From positions 1 to 60,108 of IMG/VR virus record IMGVR_UViG_3300044957_000926: a stretch of 60,108 nt of DNA; one strand, written 5' to 3'. Below the pieces are notes generated by a model, which did not search any database, had not been told where the DNA came from, and saw only the letters and a program-made list of their open reading frames with translations. Position numbers and translations under genes: made by a program. Source of the DNA: a virus. This document shows, one piece after another, positions 8,680-30,933 of this stretch (positions within the stretch are counted from its first letter, which is position 1; each line of letters starts with the position of its first letter).

Positions 8680-11600
8680 TTAGATAGGAAATTCCCTAAT
8701 TTGAATCACATCACCATTAGAAGGAGCATCTCCTGTACCAAAAATACAGTTTGTTCCAGATACTGTATAATTTGTGTCTGGAATTTGTACAACACCATTT
8801 ATCATTACCATAATACTCTTAGAAGTGTGTCCAGTGGTAATGGTAAATGTTTGTTGAGTTCCAGTACCAGTATAGGTTCTAACATTATATTTTGTTGATA
8901 GTCCATAACCACCATCAACAACCAAATTACCACTAATATGCTGATTTCCGGTAACATCTAAACGAAATGTTTGATTAGCAAATCCACCCAATGCCATATT
9001 GGTTGTACTGCCAAAAGTAGCAATATCAATAAATCCAGTATTCGTGAGTCCAAACTTATACCAAGTATTAGAATAATACATCCAACCTAGATTCTTACCA
9101 GGAGTCCAAGAAGTATTATAAACAATATCTCCGTCTGAAGGAGTTGTATAGGTTGGAATCGAAGATAAGTTAGGAGAACCAAGACCGTTATCTGGTGCAA
9201 TTAATGTCGATTTAAGAATTGTTCCATCTGGATTAACATAATTAATTCTTTTAGCTTGAATTTCTTTGTCGGAAGTAATTTTGGATTGGAAAGTAACGGG
9301 ACCTGCAAATAAAGATTCGTTTTGGTTGGCCTTACCACCCAAAACAGTTAATTTATCAGTAAGAACGACTTCCGAGAATGTTTGAATTGTAGTATTTTCT
9401 TCACCAAGAATATCTAATTGAGCAACGTCTTCCTGAGTAATCTGTCCTGTAACGGGGTTAATAACTTGGTTACCAATAAATAGATCTCCATTGGAGTTCA
9501 AACCCGAATAAAACGAAACACCTGCTTGCTCTCTTAAAGATTGAGAGAATTTGATTTGATCAGCAGATAGAACTTCAACTTGAGTTTGTGGGAATGCGGT
9601 AGAATAGTTACCAGGGCCAAAACCAGTATATTCAAAGGTATGATTACCAGATCTCTGAATAGAGTGTCTTCTTAATTCAATTTGAATTGGAATAACATTA
9701 TTATTTGAATCAACTTTTAACGGAATTTTTCTTGTTTCCTCATTTCCATTTTTAGAAGTTAATGTAATAGATCCAAGAGTTCCTGCAGATGGGTTCCACG
9801 CAAAATTATTTTGAGTTTCTGCTAAAAAAGATTCTGTGGCTTCCTTAGTAATACTTCTTTGACTATTTTTATTTCCTAATCCATCAGTAGCATATACTGA
9901 ACCAATAGTAACATTATCTGCAATAGATACTGCAGCAAGTGGATCTCCTTTTGGATTATCCCTATCAAATGCAGGATATACTTCATTCACATTTTGTGAG
10001 AATCTATAATCATCAAAGTTTGATGTTGATGGTGCAACTGAAGCATTTAATAATGTTAGGTAATATATACCATCAGAAACACCCCTGGAGAAAGTTTGAA
10101 TTTGTTCAATCTCATAAATGTAATAACAATCAGTGTATGAAGGAGAACTTGTTTCGCTAGATCTTGGTTGAATTACATATCCAGTAATAGGTTCTCTAGG
10201 TACTGGGAATGAATCTTTAGGAACAACATATCGATATCTATAAATTCTATCTTTTAGAACACGAGAGTCTGGTCTTCTTTTAATAAAAGATGCTGGTGTG
10301 AAGGAAGCAGTAGCATATTGATTATTTGTAGTTAGAGTGGAAAAAATAGTATTAGTAATTCCACCACCTATCGTTTGAGTTTGTAAATACCATCCACCAA
10401 CTTGTTCACTTACACCATTAATCGTGTAAGTACTAGCATCAAATTTAATTGGACTTGCAGAACTATTAGCTGAGGATCCAGTTACACTTGGACCGTATGG
10501 ACTAATATATGCACTCTGTACTGTTGGTGTTGCTCCAGCTGATGCTGCTAATAGACAATAAATTCTATCTCCTGTAGTATTTGGTATTCCATCTTGTCTT
10601 GCGCCAATAGTATAACCTTGTGTTTTAGTGCTAGGTGGAGCATCTAAATTTGTATATCCATATAAGTACAATCTATTTGGATTAGATACAACTCTAGTTC
10701 TTTGAATATCGATATTTACCCAATTAAAAGAAACTTCAGAAATATCAGAAATATCTTTGGGTGGAATAACGTGTGTTAGAGTACCAAACTTATCCTTGGT
10801 AAATGCTTCTGCCTTGAATCCCTTACAACGTAGAGCAAGGCTACCAAAATTGGAGTTTGAGTTAGTGATGGACATGTCAGCACCACTATCAGCAAAGAAG
10901 TGATCACCATATCCCACAGCAAACACCGAAACAACCTGAATAAATGCGTCATTTGATGCTTTAATGTGGCAATGTCTCCATCCTTTTTTATATCGACATG
11001 CACCATCTAAATGAGCACCAGATCCACCCTCATCATAAGATCCAGTATTTGTATTATATCTTACAAATGCACGATCATCTTTTTGTAGCGAAAGACCTGT
11101 AAATTGTGCAACAACCATGGATTTGAAACCAGTTGCTTTTGACCCATCAGCGTGCATTCCGTTCATACCCCAAACAGAACGTAATGATAAGTTGAACGCA
11201 TATGGTGATGCAGAATCAACTGTATCAATTTCAACTTTAACAAGAATGTTAGAACCTACAGCATTACCTGTAGGTTCTGATGACATTTGATAAGTAAATA
11301 CATTACCTTGTGCTGATGTGACAGCAAAAGATCCATTATATAAGGCAGAATCTAATTCACTTTGAGTACCAGTAGAACCAGTAACACCAGAAATATTAAT
11401 ATTAACACCGACAGAGAATCCATGATTCCTGGGATTTCCTAATTCATCAACAGTAAGGGCAGTAGCAGTTTGACCATTTCTTGTGATCTGAAGAACTTGA
11501 TATTCATCTGAAATTGGTCCAACAATTCTATTTTCTTCAATTCTTGGTTGAATCTGATCCTGAGAAGGAATACCAGAAGTATCAGGAATTGTAGTAAATG

Positions 11601-12369
11601 CTCGTGAAATTTTTTGATAATAAATTTCAAGATCAGTTCTTGATGTTAAGTCTGGAATGATTGTAGATCCGATATCAAAGTTTGGAACAACTGTACCATT
11701 GCTAATCAGTTGTCCTAAAGTATTTACGCCATCGGCAAAACCAAAACATGTTACTTTATGATGTGAATAATTAGGTTGTATGGTACTAGAATCATTTTCT
11801 TTGTAATAAACTCCTGCAGAATCACCATCAAAAAAAGAAAATTGCCAAAAATAACATCCACCAGTTACTTTAAAAATGTGTGTTGGCCCTGGTTCATTAG
11901 TAGCAGTAATTCCTAATGATGGTTTTGTTGTAGGATATGGAATATATTTGGGAATAAGTTTGGTTCTTCTTAAATCAGAACCAATGACTGAACAACCTCT
12001 AGGAACAATAACCCCACCTTCAACAGAATTAAATTTATATAAAACATTATTGGGTGATGTCAAATCAAAATTAGAATTTTCATCTATTGGTGCAATTTCA
12101 GTATATAATATTTCTCCTGGTCTATTATCAATGATATATTCTGAAGGGTAAAGATAAATGCTAAACGCATCAAATTCATCGTTTGATAATCCAACGCGAT
12201 AAGAAAAACGTGAAACTTCTAAAAGAGCTCTTTGTAATGTTTTAAAGGGTCTTAATGCAGAGTTTCCTCTATTATCGATAGCATCAGAAGCATCAAAATC
12301 ATCTGGATTGACATAGATAATACGTCCTGTCCTCGACGTAATGATATTCTTTAGTCTGGTAAGTGACAT
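8680..12369 (-). CDS. Large virion structural protein (fibre/baseplate-associated)
   Basis: This 1229-aa protein begins MSLTRLKNIITSRTGRIIYV, followed by NPDDFDASDAIDNRG and LRPFKTLQRALLEVSR. The layout resembles pectin-lyase-like (right-handed beta-helix) phage proteins, where a short N-terminal block precedes stacked coils. The C-terminus contains GDIVYNTSWTPGKNLGWMYY and a terminal TGTGTQQTFTITTGHTSKSI...IQIREFPI, a pattern seen at the ends of cyanophage fibre proteins. Its size, its place among late genes and the late-promoter variant at 12392-12399 support a large structural role. It is widespread in cyanomyoviruses as a virion structural protein without a firm T4 counterpart. Confidence 0.7.
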   Translation of the reverse strand: MSLTRLKNIITSRTGRIIYVNPDDFDASDAIDNRGNSALRPFKTLQRALLEVSRFSYRVGLSNDEFDAFSIYLYPSEYIIDNRPGEILYTEIAPIDENSNFDLTSPNNVLYKFNSVEGGVIVPRGCSVIGSDLRRTKLIPKYIPYPTTKPSLGITATNEPGPTHIFKVTGGCYFWQFSFFDGDSAGVYYKENDSSTIQPNYSHHKVTCFGFADGVNTLGQLISNGTVVPNFDIGSTIIPDLTSRTDLEIYYQKISRAFTTIPDTSGIPSQDQIQPRIEENRIVGPISDEYQVLQITRNGQTATALTVDELGNPRNHGFSVGVNINISGVTGSTGTQSELDSALYNGSFAVTSAQGNVFTYQMSSEPTGNAVGSNILVKVEIDTVDSASPYAFNLSLRSVWGMNGMHADGSKATGFKSMVVAQFTGLSLQKDDRAFVRYNTNTGSYDEGGSGAHLDGACRYKKGWRHCHIKASNDAFIQVVSVFAVGYGDHFFADSGADMSITNSNSNFGSLALRCKGFKAEAFTKDKFGTLTHVIPPKDISDISEVSFNWVNIDIQRTRVVSNPNRLYLYGYTNLDAPPSTKTQGYTIGARQDGIPNTTGDRIYCLLAASAGATPTVQSAYISPYGPSVTGSSANSSASPIKFDASTYTINGVSEQVGGWYLQTQTIGGGITNTIFSTLTTNNQYATASFTPASFIKRRPDSRVLKDRIYRYRYVVPKDSFPVPREPITGYVIQPRSSETSSPSYTDCYYIYEIEQIQTFSRGVSDGIYYLTLLNASVAPSTSNFDDYRFSQNVNEVYPAFDRDNPKGDPLAAVSIADNVTIGSVYATDGLGNKNSQRSITKEATESFLAETQNNFAWNPSAGTLGSITLTSKNGNEETRKIPLKVDSNNNVIPIQIELRRHSIQRSGNHTFEYTGFGPGNYSTAFPQTQVEVLSADQIKFSQSLREQAGVSFYSGLNSNGDLFIGNQVINPVTGQITQEDVAQLDILGEENTTIQTFSEVVLTDKLTVLGGKANQNESLFAGPVTFQSKITSDKEIQAKRINYVNPDGTILKSTLIAPDNGLGSPNLSSIPTYTTPSDGDIVYNTSWTPGKNLGWMYYSNTWYKFGLTNTGFIDIATFGSTTNMALGGFANQTFRLDVTGNQHISGNLVVDGGYGLSTKYNVRTYTGTGTQQTFTITTGHTSKSIMVMINGVVQIPDTNYTVSGTNCIFGTGDAPSNGDVIQIREFPI

Positions 12370-12391
12370 CTACCTTATTCCCATATAACTG

Positions 12392-12399
12392 TATTTATT
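12392..12399 (-). promoter_or_regulatory. Probable late promoter variant
   Basis: AATAAATA on the minus strand, overlapping the stop codon of the upstream gene and 23 bases ahead of the start at 12369. Confidence 0.4.
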
Positions 12400-14251
12400 A
12401 TCCTAAAGCAAAATCTACGCTCTGTCTAATATAATAAATTGGGGTAAAATCATTTGTACTATCTTCAAACCCATGCAAAACGTAACTTAAACTTTGAGCG
12501 CTTGAATATACGATTAAGCTATCTCCAGGTCCAACAACTATTCCTGTTGTTCTTTCTACAGTATAGGCAGAAATAGATTTATCATAAACAATATAATCAT
12601 TTTCACTAATTACAGCAATACTGTCAATTGTTGCTTCTTCTCTTGCAGAAGCTGGTTGCAAAGGAGAATCCAAGATAGTATCATTCTCAGCAAAGAGTGA
12701 AGAATTTTTACCTGTTGCAATCTTAATAACAGATGGATTAGACCCTGTTACTTCAGTAACATATCCATATGATCCTATAGTAACATCCGTAATTGTGTAA
12801 TTAACATTACCAAAAGAAAAAGTATCTGTATCTGTTATTATTTTTTTTGTAGGATCAAAAATATAAATTTGAGTATAATTTGGAGTGAGATCAATTGCTA
12901 TCGTCGTACCAAAGTATGTTTTGCCAACACCAGAGTTGTAAGTATAATAAGTTGAGGTAACACCGACATTTTCTAAACTCAAATCAACCCTAGTATATGC
13001 TCCTGCGGATCCAGGAGTTCCATTAATAGTAACACCAGTGGTCAAATCCTCTCCCTCGGGAGATTGTGTGCCATCTGCATTCAAAGAAATTCTTAATGGA
13101 TTAGAAGTATTAGATGCATCCGATTGATCAAATTGAATAATTCTTTCGGCATCAGCTGGTATTGAAGATGGATATGAATACACTGTGCCGCCTGCACCAT
13201 TATTATAAACAAAAACATCATAAGGATTGTAAGCATCTCCTGCCAAACCTGGGATCGCAAGATCAACACTAGCGCCTAATCCATTAGTTACAGTTTCGTC
13301 TAGTTGAAAGAATGCAAAATGACCTGTAGTAACTGTTGTCTGTTGAGTAATGACACTACCATCGGCATGAGTTGCAGCAGTCGTACCAAACTCACCTCTA
13401 GTTACAGTTAAATTCAAACCAACAATTGAATTGATTCGTAAAAATTCATTATCAATTTGAATAAAAGATCCTATTGTTAAACCGGTTGTACTTGCAACTG
13501 TAAGAGTTGTATCAGTACTACTATAAGTTGCCCCTTCATTAACAGTCGTTGTAATTGCACTTGCTCGGAAAATAGTCATTGCAGTGCCAGCAAAGTGTTC
13601 TATTGCTGTAGTTCCGAGCTGACCTCTAGTTACAGTTACATTATAATCAGTAATCGAACTAATACGCATGATTTCATCATCAGTATAGATGTAATCATTT
13701 GCAACAACACCAGTATTATTATTTATTGTAAATGATGTTCCACTTGAAGTAACATTAGGAAGATTTAAATGAAATACTCCTTCGGTGATTCTATACACAG
13801 TTGCAGTGATTCCTGTAGTAGATCCTGTAATTGTGTTACCTACAGAAAAAGTGCCTGTTAATTCTTGAAGATCGAAAGAAGCAGAGCCTATACATACAAC
13901 TTTAGTTAAATAAGTAATAATTTCTGTATCTTGATATATGTCTTGTATTTTGAATGATCCTTGATTTTGATCAAGCGTGATAATATCACCGGGATCAAAA
14001 TCAGAAGTTGTAATACCAGGTTGAATAGTCAATAGATATCTAGAAATAACATTTCCTCTCTGGAAAGAATATGTAGAATCTAAGGTCAATTCTTGAGTAT
14101 AATTTCTCAATCCAACTCTATAAGTAGCAGCGGTTCCGCTTTGATTGCATACTTCTAATGCCGTGCTTGCTGCTTTATCAATTGGGCATTGGTATAGTGT
14201 AGATTGTGTAGTAGCGGCGGCTTTAGTTGCTGCCAATCTTCCTGCTGTCAT
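12398..14251 (-). CDS. Virion structural protein with repeated beta modules
   Basis: This 617-aa protein starts MTAGRLAATKAAATTQSTLY. It contains two related modules: one with DDEIMRISSITDYNVTVTRG then QLGTTAIEH, and one with DNEFLRINSIVGLNLTVTRG then EFGTTAATH. Each looks like a beta-hairpin unit, so the region arose by internal duplication. The rest is Thr/Ser/Gly-rich and likely beta-structured. It follows the fibre gene at 14258 with a six-base gap and precedes the 1229-aa protein, so it belongs to the same late structural operon. It is likely a neck, tail or fibre component; which one cannot be told. Confidence 0.65.
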   Translation of the reverse strand: MTAGRLAATKAAATTQSTLYQCPIDKAASTALEVCNQSGTAATYRVGLRNYTQELTLDSTYSFQRGNVISRYLLTIQPGITTSDFDPGDIITLDQNQGSFKIQDIYQDTEIITYLTKVVCIGSASFDLQELTGTFSVGNTITGSTTGITATVYRITEGVFHLNLPNVTSSGTSFTINNNTGVVANDYIYTDDEIMRISSITDYNVTVTRGQLGTTAIEHFAGTAMTIFRASAITTTVNEGATYSSTDTTLTVASTTGLTIGSFIQIDNEFLRINSIVGLNLTVTRGEFGTTAATHADGSVITQQTTVTTGHFAFFQLDETVTNGLGASVDLAIPGLAGDAYNPYDVFVYNNGAGGTVYSYPSSIPADAERIIQFDQSDASNTSNPLRISLNADGTQSPEGEDLTTGVTINGTPGSAGAYTRVDLSLENVGVTSTYYTYNSGVGKTYFGTTIAIDLTPNYTQIYIFDPTKKIITDTDTFSFGNVNYTITDVTIGSYGYVTEVTGSNPSVIKIATGKNSSLFAENDTILDSPLQPASAREEATIDSIAVISENDYIVYDKSISAYTVERTTGIVVGPGDSLIVYSSAQSLSYVLHGFEDSTNDFTPIYYIRQSVDFALG

Positions 14252-25404: not shown

Positions 25405-28400
25405 TCAGATCGCAATGGTGATGATTGGTTTTCCATAAAACACCTGAGTAGAGGCAGCAGATTGTGAAGCTCCACTATTCATATTTATTGGTATAGGCAT
25501 AGGTAAAATACTATTTGCTTCTTCTGTTAATGATCTAATATTTTCTAATTGCTGTACTTGCTTAGACCTATAATTAATAGTACTTGATTTTGCTGCAGGA
25601 ACTGGAGCAGATACAGGAGTTGCTTTTACTTTTGCTTTTTGTGGTGTTGGTTTTAAACTATCTTCAGAAACAGGTGGTGTAGTATATCCAAGAGAAGTTT
25701 TCAATCCGCTAATTGCTCTCTCAAGTATCTCGAATGGATCTTCTTCTGGTTCTTCTTTAGCTGCTCCTGATGATCCTGATGATGATCCTGATGATGATCC
25801 TGATGATGGTCCTGATGATGATCCAGATTCATTTATTATTGTTGAATCTCCACCCATAAAACCTTTAGCCATAGCACGAAGTTTATTTCCACCGCTACCA
25901 TCTGGCTCTCCCTTTTGCAATTGCCAAAGATCCCATCGCTCACCAGTTCCTCCCCATCCCCGTGGACCATAATTCTCATGAGGGGCAGTTCCATCTTTAT
26001 TTGATGCTGCTTCTGCATGAGTCATAACATTTTTTATGTTAATATCATTTGGTTTCCAGTTCCAACTTTTTGCGATATTTGCGATTTCTTTAGCCATATT
26101 TGTAATCTGTATCGGTTTTGGAGGCATACTCCATGGGTCAGGGTTACCACCCATAGCAGCAATACTTAATCCAACACCAGATTTATTTCTGGAATAAGTA
26201 TGACCAGGAGATCTGGAAGCATAGTCATGAAGTCTAGCAACGGTTCCATCACCTTGTATAATTGAATGATAGAAACCTGGTTGCTTAAAATGATATCCAC
26301 TGGCGGTCCAATGCAGAAATATTTTTCCTCCCTTAGCAAATTTTAAATTCTCTTCCTTCAAAATCATCTTATTTTCGCTCAAAGGTCCATTTCCAGATCT
26401 GCGTTTAGTTACCAAACCGCCTTTTGCCATTGGAATTCCAAATTCGGACTTCTTTTTATCAATTCTTTTTCCTAATTCATCGATAGTCAATTTACCATCA
26501 TTATTCATATCCAATCCACGATTACTAGAGTACCACCGTCTTGATTGTGGGTAACCAGCGGGTTCAGTTCCAGACCTATTCGCAATTACAAAATTAGCGG
26601 GTTTACTAACAAAAGCGGGCAAAAATACTGCTGTATATAAATGACCTGCAGTAGCACCTTGGGGAAGCTTCCAGTACTGCAAATATTTTTTGACATATTC
26701 CATTTGCTGTACTCTTGTCATTTTTCTTAGTGCTGCTTGAGTAGTTCCTACAGTTCTAGCTGAATCAGAACTAAATTGAATCAAACCCACATGAGTTCCG
26801 TTGGTTGCGGCGGGATTTAATCCAGATTCAGATGCCATCAATCCAAGAAGATCATTTGAACGAATATTAAAATGTTTTGCAACATCATTTACAGCATTTG
26901 CAAATTCTGGGTCTTTTTTCCATGCTGTAGCTTCGTATGAATTTGGACCTTCAGATCCACCACCTCCGCCATCGCCGGCAGTGGCACCACCGCCGCCTCC
27001 ACCGTCACCACCTCCGCCACTGCTAAGGTTTTTCTCACTCAACCAAATTAAAGAACTAAGAACGTTAGCAAGTTGCCCTCTTAATGTTGTTGCTTTGTTT
27101 TGTGGATTTTTTTTATCATTAATAATAACAGAATCTTTTCCAAGGATTAGAGAAATATCATCACCAGCATCAATTTCAAGGGATCCTTCCCTGATACCTT
27201 TATTAACAGATTTACCTAAGGTATCTCCTCCACCTCCCGCAACTGCTTGAACACCAAACATATTCTCAGCATCTTTAATAGTATTACCAACTAAGGACCT
27301 TGCTACCTCACCCGGAGCACCCATTCTCTTTAGTGCAGAATCTAATCCCCCCGCTAATGTCCCTGCCGTACCACCAAGAGAATTTAATTTTCCAAGAGGA
27401 ATAACTGCTTCTGGACCATTCTCACCAAGGCCAGCGATAGTTGGTTTATTGACAATACCACCCTCAGCAAGCATAGGAATTTTTGGTAGAGAATCTTGAA
27501 TAGATTTAAGTGGTCTCATGATGCCACCAATAATCGTATCAAGGAAATCATTTTCCTTCTTAATTACATCAGGAAAAAAGTCTCTACCAAATAGATATGC
27601 ATCCAAGCCCATAGAGATAAATGGACCAGGAACAAAACCAAAAAGTCCTGATAAATCTAAAATAGCAGATAATGCTTCAAGAGCAGCACCAGACTTATCT
27701 CCACGCTTTAACCTATCATATGCAAAATATAAGTTTACCAATCCACCGATAATTGGAATTGCCTTTCCACCTATCTTCTTAAGCATTTCTTGTCCGCCTT
27801 CTTCAGACACCTTCTTCATTACCTTATCATATCCTGGAATCTTAGTAATAGCATCTTTGGCAGTTTCACCTGCTTTCTTTGCAGCAGAAATTATACCTTT
27901 CTTTTCCAATAAGTCGTAGGCACCTTTAGCAATTGGTGTTAATTTGCTACTAACACCATCTTGAAACCACTTAGTAGATGATGCTAGAGTATTCCTAACA
28001 CCTTTAGAGACACTGCCCCCAAGCATTTTAACATTCTCCCACCCCTTCATAAATCCAGTCTTCACATTGGATAATCCAGTCTTCACATTGTCCAATCCAC
28101 CAGTTAATCTCTTTTTCCATGAATCAAATAGATCACCAGTCTTACCAAGAAGTGTTTTTGGTTTTGGTGGTATTAATTTAAATCTGCCTCTTACAGCTTT
28201 AAGAGCCTGAGCAGGACTTTTACCTCTACTAATTAGATCGTCATAATATCTTGCAGCATCAGCACCATATTTTTCTGCAATCTTTTGAGTTGATGCTTTT
28301 GGTTTTGCTGTGGGTGAAGGCGATGAAGATCCTCCTCCACTGCCGGCGCGGGCAGAAAGACCATCAATCAAATTAAGTATATCGCTAATAAGACTAAAAG

Positions 28401-29106
28401 GATTCAACAAATATCCAAGTGCTTTGAATCCAGCAATACCAATTAATAAAGTTCCAAGTCCACCTAAAACTTCACCAAATCTATCAAGTCCTTTCTTATC
28501 ACTACTTCCAAATACCTTTGCAAATCCTGTCATTACAGCATCAAAAGATTTGTATGCTATGTTATATGACCATTTAAATATTGTTCCTATTGCTTTAACA
28601 AAAGTTACTACCTTATCGATATTCTTTGGATCACCAATCCATCTAAGAACACCTTGAGTAATAATAAATCTACCAACAAAAGATATAATTCCTTCAAAAG
28701 GTTTGAATAATTTTTCGATCCAACTAAGTTTTTTCTTAACTTTATCGTTCTTTACTACTTCTTTACTAGCACCTTCCTGTTGCTTCTTATCAAATGATTC
28801 TGACTGTGCTTCTGATTTTTGATCTTTACGATATGACTCTTTTACTTTATTAAGTTTCTGCATGTTCTGCAGATACTTATTTTCATAAACTATGATGTCA
28901 CGAATTTGTTGTTGTGTTTTTCCTAATCCCTCCATCGCCATACCAATGCGATTGAGAGCAAGTACTGTTACACGAGCAGATTTTACTTGTGTTGATGCAC
29001 CACCAGCAATTTTCTTCCCTCCGACAATAAGTGTTGCTCCACCGCCAGAAGAGATTGATGATGGATTAACAAACTTATATGGTTTAATTATGCTGGTAAA
29101 TGCCAT
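25405..29106 (-). CDS. Tape-measure-like hub protein, transglycosylase plus amidase
   Basis: This 1233-aa protein has an N-terminal helical and hydrophobic part (130-250), long helical regions to about 540, an AEGGIVNKPTIAGLGENGPE motif at 547-566, and a Gly-rich linker (695-720). A lysozyme-like transglycosylase domain spans about 725-845 with E760 in MASESGLNP, followed by GLIQF. An EF-hand-like loop DMNNDGKLTIDE lies at 866-877. An amidase_2 domain spans about 925-1065 with H932 in LHWTAS and H1030 in MTHAEA. The C-terminus repeats the DPFEILERAISGL block of the paralogue. It probably combines tape-measure/hub and local peptidoglycan digestion. It overlaps the gp51-like frame by one base (TAATG). 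Confidence 0.78.
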   Translation of the reverse strand: MAFTSIIKPYKFVNPSSISSGGGATLIVGGKKIAGGASTQVKSARVTVLALNRIGMAMEGLGKTQQQIRDIIVYENKYLQNMQKLNKVKESYRKDQKSEAQSESFDKKQQEGASKEVVKNDKVKKKLSWIEKLFKPFEGIISFVGRFIITQGVLRWIGDPKNIDKVVTFVKAIGTIFKWSYNIAYKSFDAVMTGFAKVFGSSDKKGLDRFGEVLGGLGTLLIGIAGFKALGYLLNPFSLISDILNLIDGLSARAGSGGGSSSPSPTAKPKASTQKIAEKYGADAARYYDDLISRGKSPAQALKAVRGRFKLIPPKPKTLLGKTGDLFDSWKKRLTGGLDNVKTGLSNVKTGFMKGWENVKMLGGSVSKGVRNTLASSTKWFQDGVSSKLTPIAKGAYDLLEKKGIISAAKKAGETAKDAITKIPGYDKVMKKVSEEGGQEMLKKIGGKAIPIIGGLVNLYFAYDRLKRGDKSGAALEALSAILDLSGLFGFVPGPFISMGLDAYLFGRDFFPDVIKKENDFLDTIIGGIMRPLKSIQDSLPKIPMLAEGGIVNKPTIAGLGENGPEAVIPLGKLNSLGGTAGTLAGGLDSALKRMGAPGEVARSLVGNTIKDAENMFGVQAVAGGGGDTLGKSVNKGIREGSLEIDAGDDISLILGKDSVIINDKKNPQNKATTLRGQLANVLSSLIWLSEKNLSSGGGGDGGGGGGATAGDGGGGGSEGPNSYEATAWKKDPEFANAVNDVAKHFNIRSNDLLGLMASESGLNPAATNGTHVGLIQFSSDSARTVGTTQAALRKMTRVQQMEYVKKYLQYWKLPQGATAGHLYTAVFLPAFVSKPANFVIANRSGTEPAGYPQSRRWYSSNRGLDMNNDGKLTIDELGKRIDKKKSEFGIPMAKGGLVTKRRSGNGPLSENKMILKEENLKFAKGGKIFLHWTASGYHFKQPGFYHSIIQGDGTVARLHDYASRSPGHTYSRNKSGVGLSIAAMGGNPDPWSMPPKPIQITNMAKEIANIAKSWNWKPNDINIKNVMTHAEAASNKDGTAPHENYGPRGWGGTGERWDLWQLQKGEPDGSGGNKLRAMAKGFMGGDSTIINESGSSSGPSSGSSSGSSSGSSGAAKEEPEEDPFEILERAISGLKTSLGYTTPPVSEDSLKPTPQKAKVKATPVSAPVPAAKSSTINYRSKQVQQLENIRSLTEEANSILPMPIPINMNSGASQSAASTQVFYGKPIITIAI

Positions 29107-29315
29107 TAGAGACTTTGCCTACCCTGTGCTGCTTTTTGTTGTTCTTGATATTTTTGTTTTTGATCGTCAAGATGTCCAAGAAGTTTATTAACATAAAAAT
29201 CCTTTTCCCAAGGAATCATGTTTTCAAGGTCCGAATAAGACCATTTATGATGATGCATTAATGCAAAATTAGTTTCTAGATGATTCTCTAGGGTAGCATG
29301 GAGTAGGGCTATGCG
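29106..29315 (-). CDS. gp51-like extension read by -1 frameshift from gp26
   Basis: This 69-codon frame (starting RIALLHATLENHLETNFALM, then HHHKWSYSDLENMIPWEKDF) has no ATG, GTG or TTG at its start. It is in the -1 frame relative to gp26 and joins it exactly at T TTT TTC (29315-29321), a canonical -1 slip heptamer read in frame by gp26 two codons before its stop. A GGAGGG element lies about ten bases upstream. The result would be a 305-aa gp26 fusion. The Trp-Glu...Tyr-Val...Leu pattern resembles the extension of tail assembly chaperones of other phages. In cyanophages this segment is related to what is called gp51. An ATA start after GGGAG is the alternative. Confidence 0.72.
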   Translation of the reverse strand, partial: RIALLHATLENHLETNFALMHHHKWSYSDLENMIPWEKDFYVNKLLGHLDDQKQKYQEQQKAAQGRQSL

Positions 29316-30022
29316 AAAAAAGCTCCCAAACCCTCCAATTTCACAGTGCTCTTAACACCAGTTTTAGGATTTTCAATTTCAACATCATGTTCTAATTTAG
29401 GCATATTAGAGAAAAAATCTTGAAGTTTAAGAAACTGATCACTCTTCATAGATTCGAAGAACTCGATTAGTTCTTTTTTAGTATAAGTTTTCACATCTTG
29501 CACTTCATCGCCTTCATAAACTTGATCTAGACATTGAATAGCCAATTCAAAAATATTATCTACTGTAATATCTTCACCAATAAAATTTAATTTCACAAAA
29601 GTATCCAAAGAAGGATATTTCATAATTAATCCTACATCATCAGTCAATTCAATTTTTGTAGAGTGATTTTCCGGCCAGGTAATTTCAATTGAATCCAAAT
29701 CAATTTCAACTTCCACTTGAGTTTCATCATCATCTGGACATGTAATCATAATTTTAGAAACTTCGCCAATAGATTTAGAACGAATCTTTAAGAAAAGGTA
29801 TTCAATATCAAAAGTTGCTAAATTATCAACTCTAGATTTAAGATTGGTGCAATTTTTAATAATAGTTTTAACTGCATTCATCATATCTTTCTCTTCGCCA
29901 AGTTGTATGGCAATGAGAAGAAGTTTTTCTTCTTTTACAAGAAAAGGACGATATTTAACAGTTTCTTTTGTTGATGGCAATTCCAATTCATATTCAGGAA
30001 CCACTAATTTAGGTAAAGGCAT
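29309..30022 (-). CDS. 26: Baseplate hub subunit / tail assembly chaperone gp26
   Basis: This 237-aa protein (MPLPKLVVPEYELELPSTKE...) matches the T4 baseplate family (gp26): VKYRPFLVKEEKLLLIAIQL then KTIIKNCTN, followed by FDIEYLFLKIRSKSIGE and an acidic DDDETQVEVEIDLDSIEITW segment. T4 gp26 is 208 aa, so this is slightly longer. It lies just upstream of the tape-measure-like gene and ends with AFFA encoded over a slip site, so it probably acts as a tail assembly chaperone, with a longer frameshifted form. The late-promoter-like CTAAATAA at 30054-30061 could serve it. Confidence 0.85.
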   Translation of the reverse strand: MPLPKLVVPEYELELPSTKETVKYRPFLVKEEKLLLIAIQLGEEKDMMNAVKTIIKNCTNLKSRVDNLATFDIEYLFLKIRSKSIGEVSKIMITCPDDDETQVEVEIDLDSIEITWPENHSTKIELTDDVGLIMKYPSLDTFVKLNFIGEDITVDNIFELAIQCLDQVYEGDEVQDVKTYTKKELIEFFESMKSDQFLKLQDFFSNMPKLEHDVEIENPKTGVKSTVKLEGLGAFFA

Positions 30023-30066: not shown

Positions 30067-30933
30067 TTATTTGATCTTACCAGAACTATCAATTTTAGCT
30101 GTTGTTGTAGCTGTAGATGATCCATCAGCAGTTGCAGCCGGAGTTTGTAATAATTGCTCTATGGTTGTAGCTGTAGAAGATCCAATTTCTGCTGGTATAT
30201 TAGATGTACCAGAATTCTTTGGAATAAAGAAACGATATCTTTCATAATAAAAAGATACTTCCATATTCAATGTCCCTGCTTGACCATTTGTTAATTGAAT
30301 ATTACTAATATTAAATGGAAATATATTTGATAATGACCAAACACCTGATATTTTATTGAATTGGACAAAATCTCTTACACCTTGCGGTGTTGTTGGATTT
30401 ACAACACTAATTGCCGCATTAGAAGGATTAACTCCACCTCTCTCATATTTAAATATATCCATAAATGGACATGTAATATCTTCGTACCAACTAACTCGGT
30501 TTCCAGAATCCTCTGTAATATAATTCATCCATCTTTCAAAAAAAGTTCTGGTTGTCAAATCTCTAGATAGAGTAAAATTAATAGAAATTTCGCTAAATGT
30601 TGTACCAGTCGGATATCTATATAATGCACCTACAGTTTTAGCATCACCTGTAGTAATCTGTCTGCTAGGAATAGTAACATCGTTCGCATAATAATTTATT
30701 AGTCTAGATTCATCTCTACCAGAAGATCCGTAACTAAGTCCCGTGCTATTATCACTGCCACCATCAAAAAATGGCGAAAAAAAGGAATCTGCTTTTATTC
30801 TAAGTGTATTTGGAATACTTCTAAATCTAACCCAATATAAATTATTATATGACGGGGGTCTTCTGGAAGCAAAAGCTTTAAATCCCTGTAAACTATTTGC
30901 TCCAGATCCATGAGTAGATAAATACGATGACAT
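30067..30933 (-). CDS. Baseplate tail-tube initiator, gp54-like
   Basis: This 288-aa protein has the tail-tube fold pattern: NDVTIPSRQITTGDAKTVGA, RYPTGTTFSEISINFTLSRD then RTFFERWMNYI, followed by SGVWSLSNIFPFNISNIQ and EVSFYYERYRFF. Tube-like proteins of this length in T4-type phages are gp48, gp54 and gp19. The other tube-like gene in this window (31412) reads as gp48, so I call this one gp54-like by elimination. It heads the hub operon and is transcribed from a CATAAATA late promoter at 30971-30978, back-to-back with the plus-strand operon. Confidence 0.62.
   Translation of the reverse strand: MSSYLSTHGSGANSLQGFKAFASRRPPSYNNLYWVRFRSIPNTLRIKADSFFSPFFDGGSDNSTGLSYGSSGRDESRLINYYANDVTIPSRQITTGDAKTVGALYRYPTGTTFSEISINFTLSRDLTTRTFFERWMNYITEDSGNRVSWYEDITCPFMDIFKYERGGVNPSNAAISVVNPTTPQGVRDFVQFNKISGVWSLSNIFPFNISNIQLTNGQAGTLNMEVSFYYERYRFFIPKNSGTSNIPAEIGSSTATTIEQLLQTPAATADGSSTATTTAKIDSSGKIK

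Follow-up and report, generated by a model that had tools for sequence, protein, structure and literature searches.

Sequence evidence for a programmed -1 frameshift joining gp26 to a gp51-like extension in a T4-like cyanophage and its relatives

The window, by which we mean the whole 60,108-nucleotide stretch of viral DNA analysed here, carries on its minus strand the set of features collected in Table 1. The gp26 of the window belongs to the T4 gp26 family, as the PF12322 profile matches essentially the whole protein (residues 9-237 of 237, E 6e-69); it also matches phrog_150 (E 2e-77). The 3' end of the gene, GGA GCT TTT TTC GCA TAG, contains the heptamer T TTT TTC in the gp26 reading frame, with its TTC two codons ahead of the stop, exactly where an earlier note made from this sequence had placed it. 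Following a one-base backward slip, translation in the -1 frame would begin RIALLHATLENHLETNFALMHHHKW. Upstream of the slip site this frame is open for 10 codons only. The extension downstream matches phrog_634 ('baseplate hub assembly catalyst', gp51) with an E value of 1e-22, the match being confined to the second half of the profile (positions 58-119 of 121), and the predicted fusion has 236 + 69 = 305 aa, the length that the earlier note had expected. That note had also described the -1 frame correctly in its length, its phase and its lack of an early start, while its boundary at 29108 was one base off. The GGAGGG that it had put about ten bases upstream of the heptamer is indeed present at that distance.

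The gp26 gene and its extension are placed between a tail tube gene and a tape-measure-like gene, as in lambda-type tail assembly chaperones, and as in that arrangement a second frame, in -1 phase and lacking its own start, overlaps the first. The 1233-aa product of the downstream gene gave weak matches to tape-measure PHROGs as well as matches to endolysin PHROGs; given its position and these weak matches, we refer to it as tape-measure-like. Translation of this gene may be coupled to the slipped ribosomes through the TAATG at 29104-29108.

Table 1. Features of the gp26 locus, in window coordinates.
Feature	Position	Strand	Remarks
Tail tube-like gene, directly upstream of gp26	30067..30933	-	phrog_45, E 1.5e-39
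gp26, putative short chaperone (TAC-N, lambda G-like)	29309..30022	-	237 aa; PF12322 / phrog_150
SD-like GGAGGG, presumed frameshift stimulator	29331..29336	-	9 nt upstream of heptamer
Slippery heptamer T TTT TTC, gp26 reading frame	29315..29321	-	
gp26 stop TAG, for non-slipping ribosomes	29309..29311	-	
-1 frame extension, gp51/T-like domain	29109..29315	-	69 codons; phrog_634
Small hairpin CTAGA-GAATCA-TCTAG, weak possible stimulator	29276..29291	-	23 nt past heptamer
Extension stop TAA	29106..29108	-	last base is first base of next gene's ATG (TAATG)
Tape-measure-like gene, directly downstream	25405..29106	-	1233 aa; amidase and transglycosylase-like domains

A scan of IMG/VR yielded 80 relatives of this gp26, with 48-80% identity. 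As the alignment suggested in the earlier note would require, T TTT TTC was present in the gp26 frame near the end of the gene in all 80 relatives as well as in the window, and never more than one or two sense codons of gp26 remained after it. Furthermore, the extension was in -1 phase and aligned from its first residue in every one of the 79 relatives whose contig was long enough. Using 75 sequences filtered to <75% codon identity, we observed that the phenylalanine pair was written TTT and then TTC without exception (75/75), while phenylalanine usage across these gp26 genes is 65% TTT and 35% TTC. The probability of this pattern given codon usage is ~10^-65 under the assumption of independent sequences, an assumption that does not hold here. 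For synonymous conservation, the two phenylalanine codons rank first and second of 234 codon columns. Because TTC accounts for about a third of phenylalanine codons, the fixed order TTT TTC indicates selection on the nucleotides and not on the protein alone, and by this measure the sharing of the slip site is far beyond chance.

The sequences on either side of the heptamer are also constrained. An SD-like core, defined as AGGA, GGAG, GAGG or AGGG, was present upstream of the heptamer in 54 of 55 sequences (a set filtered at 80% identity). Glutamate was encoded by GAG in 38 of the 52 Glu-Gly pairs, compared to a gene-wide usage of 32% (p 1.5e-9), and GAA was never followed by GGT or GGC (0/14, versus 17/38 otherwise; p 0.002), indicating that the purine run is kept even where GAA is used. 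When RNA folding energy was compared against synonymous-codon controls, only the ~50 nt 3' of the site showed excess folding, with a mean z of -1.85 as against -0.97 to +0.05 in other windows. The downstream RNA structure of the window phage itself is ordinary (z about -0.4 to -1.0), with small stems only, whereas the stems of relatives in the same stretch are stronger and lineage-specific, as with the 14-bp stem of S-PM2. Since the stems differ by lineage and that of the window is weak, we do not accept that one stem or pseudoknot is conserved downstream of the site.

The arrangement extends to ten phages of other T4-like or related groups (KVP40, Ah1, VmeM-32, S13, Cr30, Mendera, phiN3, IC12, Melnitz-3 and C48C1), in which gp26 ends T TTT TT(C/T) and the extension is again in -1 phase. 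In the public records of Ah1, VmeM-32 and S13 the conserved extension is left unannotated, presumably for want of the usual start codon. The Vibrio phages SD25 and D493 carry remote gp26 relatives without T TTT TTC, in which the gp26 stop shares bases with an ATG (TAATG) that opens the extension frame; SD25 has GTTTTT, a motif reported for the chaperones of Vandenendeviridae. A separate, ATG-started gp51 without a slip site, which the earlier note had named as evidence against frameshifting, was found in none of the cyanophages and perhaps in two remote, Ackermannviridae-like relatives.

In T4, gp51 is a protein of 249 aa, of which residues 1-201 belong to the gp26 family (PF12322, E 4e-52) and the C-terminus corresponds to the extension, with a phrog_634 match at 147-246. 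Profile comparison aligned cyanophage gp26 with the N-terminal part of T4-type gp51 (92% probability, E 5e-7) and the extension with its residues 202-246 (93% probability, E 3e-7). Cyanophage gp26 is also homologous to T4 gp26 over its full length (hhalign E 3e-12). The layout of whole T4 gp51, a gp26-like N-terminal part plus the extension, is found in the predicted fusion only and not in the extension alone. The predicted fold of T4-type gp51 keeps the general order of elements seen in gp26 and adds extra C-terminal helices. No slip site is present in the gp26 genes of T4 and seven T4-type relatives, and T4-type gp26 genes that retain the FF pair write it TTC TTT. Read from these alignments, the T4-type phages have lost the slip site, and their gp51 consists of a gp26 paralogue to which the extension has been joined in frame. 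They thus provide what we regard as a natural control, in which a separate gene for the long form goes together with absence of the heptamer, and T4 appears to have replaced the frameshift with a second, duplicated gene. The equivalence of gp26/gp51 with lambda G/GT that the earlier note had drawn holds after refinement: the cyanophage 'gp51' is only the T-like C-terminal piece, and it is the whole T4 gp51, comprising the gp26 paralogue and the C-terminal piece, that matches GT, with T4 gp26 matching G.

Further records were noted in passing. In Klebsiella phage CP-p-KP-21068 (2501-3792 of the sequence examined), gp51 and gp26 are tandem genes on one strand with a four-base overlap, unlike the divergent arrangement of T4. 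One weak profile match, of T4 gp26 to the gp28 family (phrog_1140, E 9e-4), hinted at T4 gp28 (10349-10882 of the sequence examined) as a third paralogue, which hhalign did not support. The record of Citrobacter phage Moon annotates a GT-like gp27/gp28 fusion at 11607-13245 of the sequence examined; its reading as a tape measure chaperone conflicts with the homology found here, and we therefore did not follow it.

Because the slip site, the SD-like purine run and the downstream folding are conserved, and because the site is lost in T4-type phages, the programmed -1 frameshift that the earlier note proposed for the end of gp26 is, as judged from sequence, close to certain. One gene would then very probably give two chaperone versions, according to the fraction of ribosomes that slip one base back. 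Most ribosomes would terminate at the TAG just past the slip site, producing the 237-aa, G-like gp26. A minority would pause there, pushed by the purine-rich SD-like element 9 nt before the heptamer and, in many relatives, by a downstream stem-loop as well; on U UUU UUC both tRNA-Phe would re-pair one base back, and these ribosomes would go on to produce the 305-aa, GT-like fusion. On the lambda model (PMC5009743), the gp26 part would cover the tape measure protein, whose gene comes next, while tail tube subunits would be brought in by the extension; neither chaperone would stay in the finished tail. We infer slippage in infected cells, and its efficiency, from the sequence, and the binding of the tape measure and the tail tube by gp26 and the extension from the lambda analogy.

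It is highly likely, in our view, that this T4-like cyanophage makes its two tail assembly chaperones from gp26 and its -1 extension by frameshifting. The best reading is that gp26 is the equivalent of lambda G and the 305-aa fusion that of GT, given the gene order, the homology of both parts to T4 gp26 and gp51 and, weakly, the fold. The AlphaFold2 model of gp26 (pLDDT 90) gave its highest probabilities, among the PDB matches listed, with chains of the HK97 tail assembly chaperone 2OB9 (0.35 and 0.30; TMt 0.37 and 0.36), at E values of 2.4-2.8 that are far from significant. The match to 3FGX had a probability of 0.15, and the fold-match E values overall were 2.4-5.5. A sequence search for a solved structural relative of gp26 detected no similarity to any solved chaperone.

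Several other explanations of the locus were weighed. The most direct is that gp51 is a separate small gene, translated by termination and reinitiation at or after the gp26 stop without any frameshifting. Public records annotate it in this way (S-PM2 gp51 from an ATG; KVP40.0327), an ATG lies within the first seven extension codons at 58 of 82 loci, and stop and start overlap as TAATG or TGATG in KVP40, Cr30, phiN3 and Mendera. However, an SD core 5-16 nt upstream is lacking for every one of these 58 ATGs, and the window and 13 relatives have no ATG, GTG or TTG in the first 18 extension codons, which reach well into the conserved domain, with the slip site invariant regardless. In the window the first such codon is the 20th, within that domain. 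In addition, extension codon 4 is Met or Leu at all 82 loci and ATG at 37, indicating that a hydrophobic residue of the chain has been kept and not a start codon, and the homologous stretch is internal to T4 gp51. The extension codons vary chiefly at their third positions in the -1 frame; in the 14 loci without a start, the first 18 codons gave variation of 0.30, 0.26 and 0.55 at the three positions, which shows that the -1 frame is translated in these loci too. On the start-codon and SD evidence at the 82 loci, we rejected an independent gp51 start as the main route and regard a separate gene without frameshifting as very unlikely. In relatives, reinitiation at the early ATG (58/82 loci) could still yield some free extension. 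It is rather doubtful that many relatives, the window phage not among them, make both a frameshift fusion and a free T-like domain by reinitiation at this ATG. If they do, then the frameshift, the overlap and the duplicated gp51 of T4 would be three interchangeable ways to set the chaperone ratio. KVP40, phiN3, Cr30 and Mendera combine a T-run slip site with a stop/start overlap, so both products could arise in these phages.

Since the site is a T run, slippage by RNA polymerase rather than by the ribosome could in principle shift the frame and give the fusion, and the longer runs of C48C1 (eight Ts) and Melnitz-3 (seven Ts) could do so. Transcriptional slippage involves a long homopolymer, usually of nine or more, yet each of the 81 window-like genes has six Ts followed by a conserved C, a short run for this mechanism. 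Tandem in-frame codons, the upstream SD-like run and the downstream structure instead fit ribosomal slippage, and we rate the polymerase as even less probable a cause than a separate gene. A frame change at a T run is also a common artefact in single genomes, which would make the locus a sequencing error or a decayed gp26-gp51 fusion gene. This explanation is refuted by the comparison of relatives, as site and phase are identical across 80 metagenomic contigs as well as named isolates from a wide range of laboratories, with purifying selection in both frames; its probability is negligible. Finally, the frameshift may be real while gp26 and the fusion serve hub assembly instead of chaperoning the tape measure and tail tube as in lambda. 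T4 gp26 and gp51 appear in PMC3004832 as chaperones of hub assembly, with gp51 described there as of unknown function, needed for assembly and absent from the final particle, and the fold similarity to HK97 gp13 is weak. Against this are the position of gp26 and the extension between the tail tube and tape-measure-like genes, the G/GT layout of the short and long forms, and the independent identification of tail assembly chaperones in T4-like phages, as cited in PMC10885494 and PMC12846349. We consider a hub-assembly role unlikely, though less so than the explanations that dispense with ribosomal frameshifting.

The predicted frameshift into the extension is widespread in T4-like and related phages, and the T4-type phages, without the slip site, carry the long form as a duplicated gene. 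The annotation is corrected as well: what cyanophage records give as a short 'gp51' gene is best taken for the downstream portion of one frameshifted gene. The T4-like tail assembly chaperone genes were reportedly identified by Vladimirov, Gautam and Davidson (Virology 2022, 566:9-15), and to judge from the title of that paper and from papers citing it, these genes belong to the same family as gp26. Citing this work, PMC10885494 describes some T4-like phages with a short copy and a longer fused copy, and PMC12846349 attributes to it the poly-T slip sites seen in the TAC-N genes of T4-like phages. A 2016 review describes the G-T frameshift as conserved except in T4 (PMC5009743). In the open literature searched we found no account of gp26/gp51 frameshifting in cyanophages, nor of the SD-like and downstream signals or the loss of the site in T4-type gp26, all of which may be in the 2022 paper. 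The mechanism itself is already known, and the cyanophage case is a well-supported further example.

Among known systems, the dnaX gene of E. coli has a -1 signal that consists of an A-run slip heptamer with an SD-like element ~10 nt upstream. The window phage resembles it in having a homopolymeric heptamer and an SD-like element at about this distance, and differs in that the run is of T and that no single conserved downstream stem is present. T4 differs in that its gp26 and gp51 are separate genes on opposite strands. With G/GT of lambda the window phage shares the organization, a short protein and its -1 extension being encoded between the tail tube gene and the tape measure gene, although gp26 is larger than lambda G and the slip site, G GGA AAG in lambda, is T TTT TTC in the window phage.
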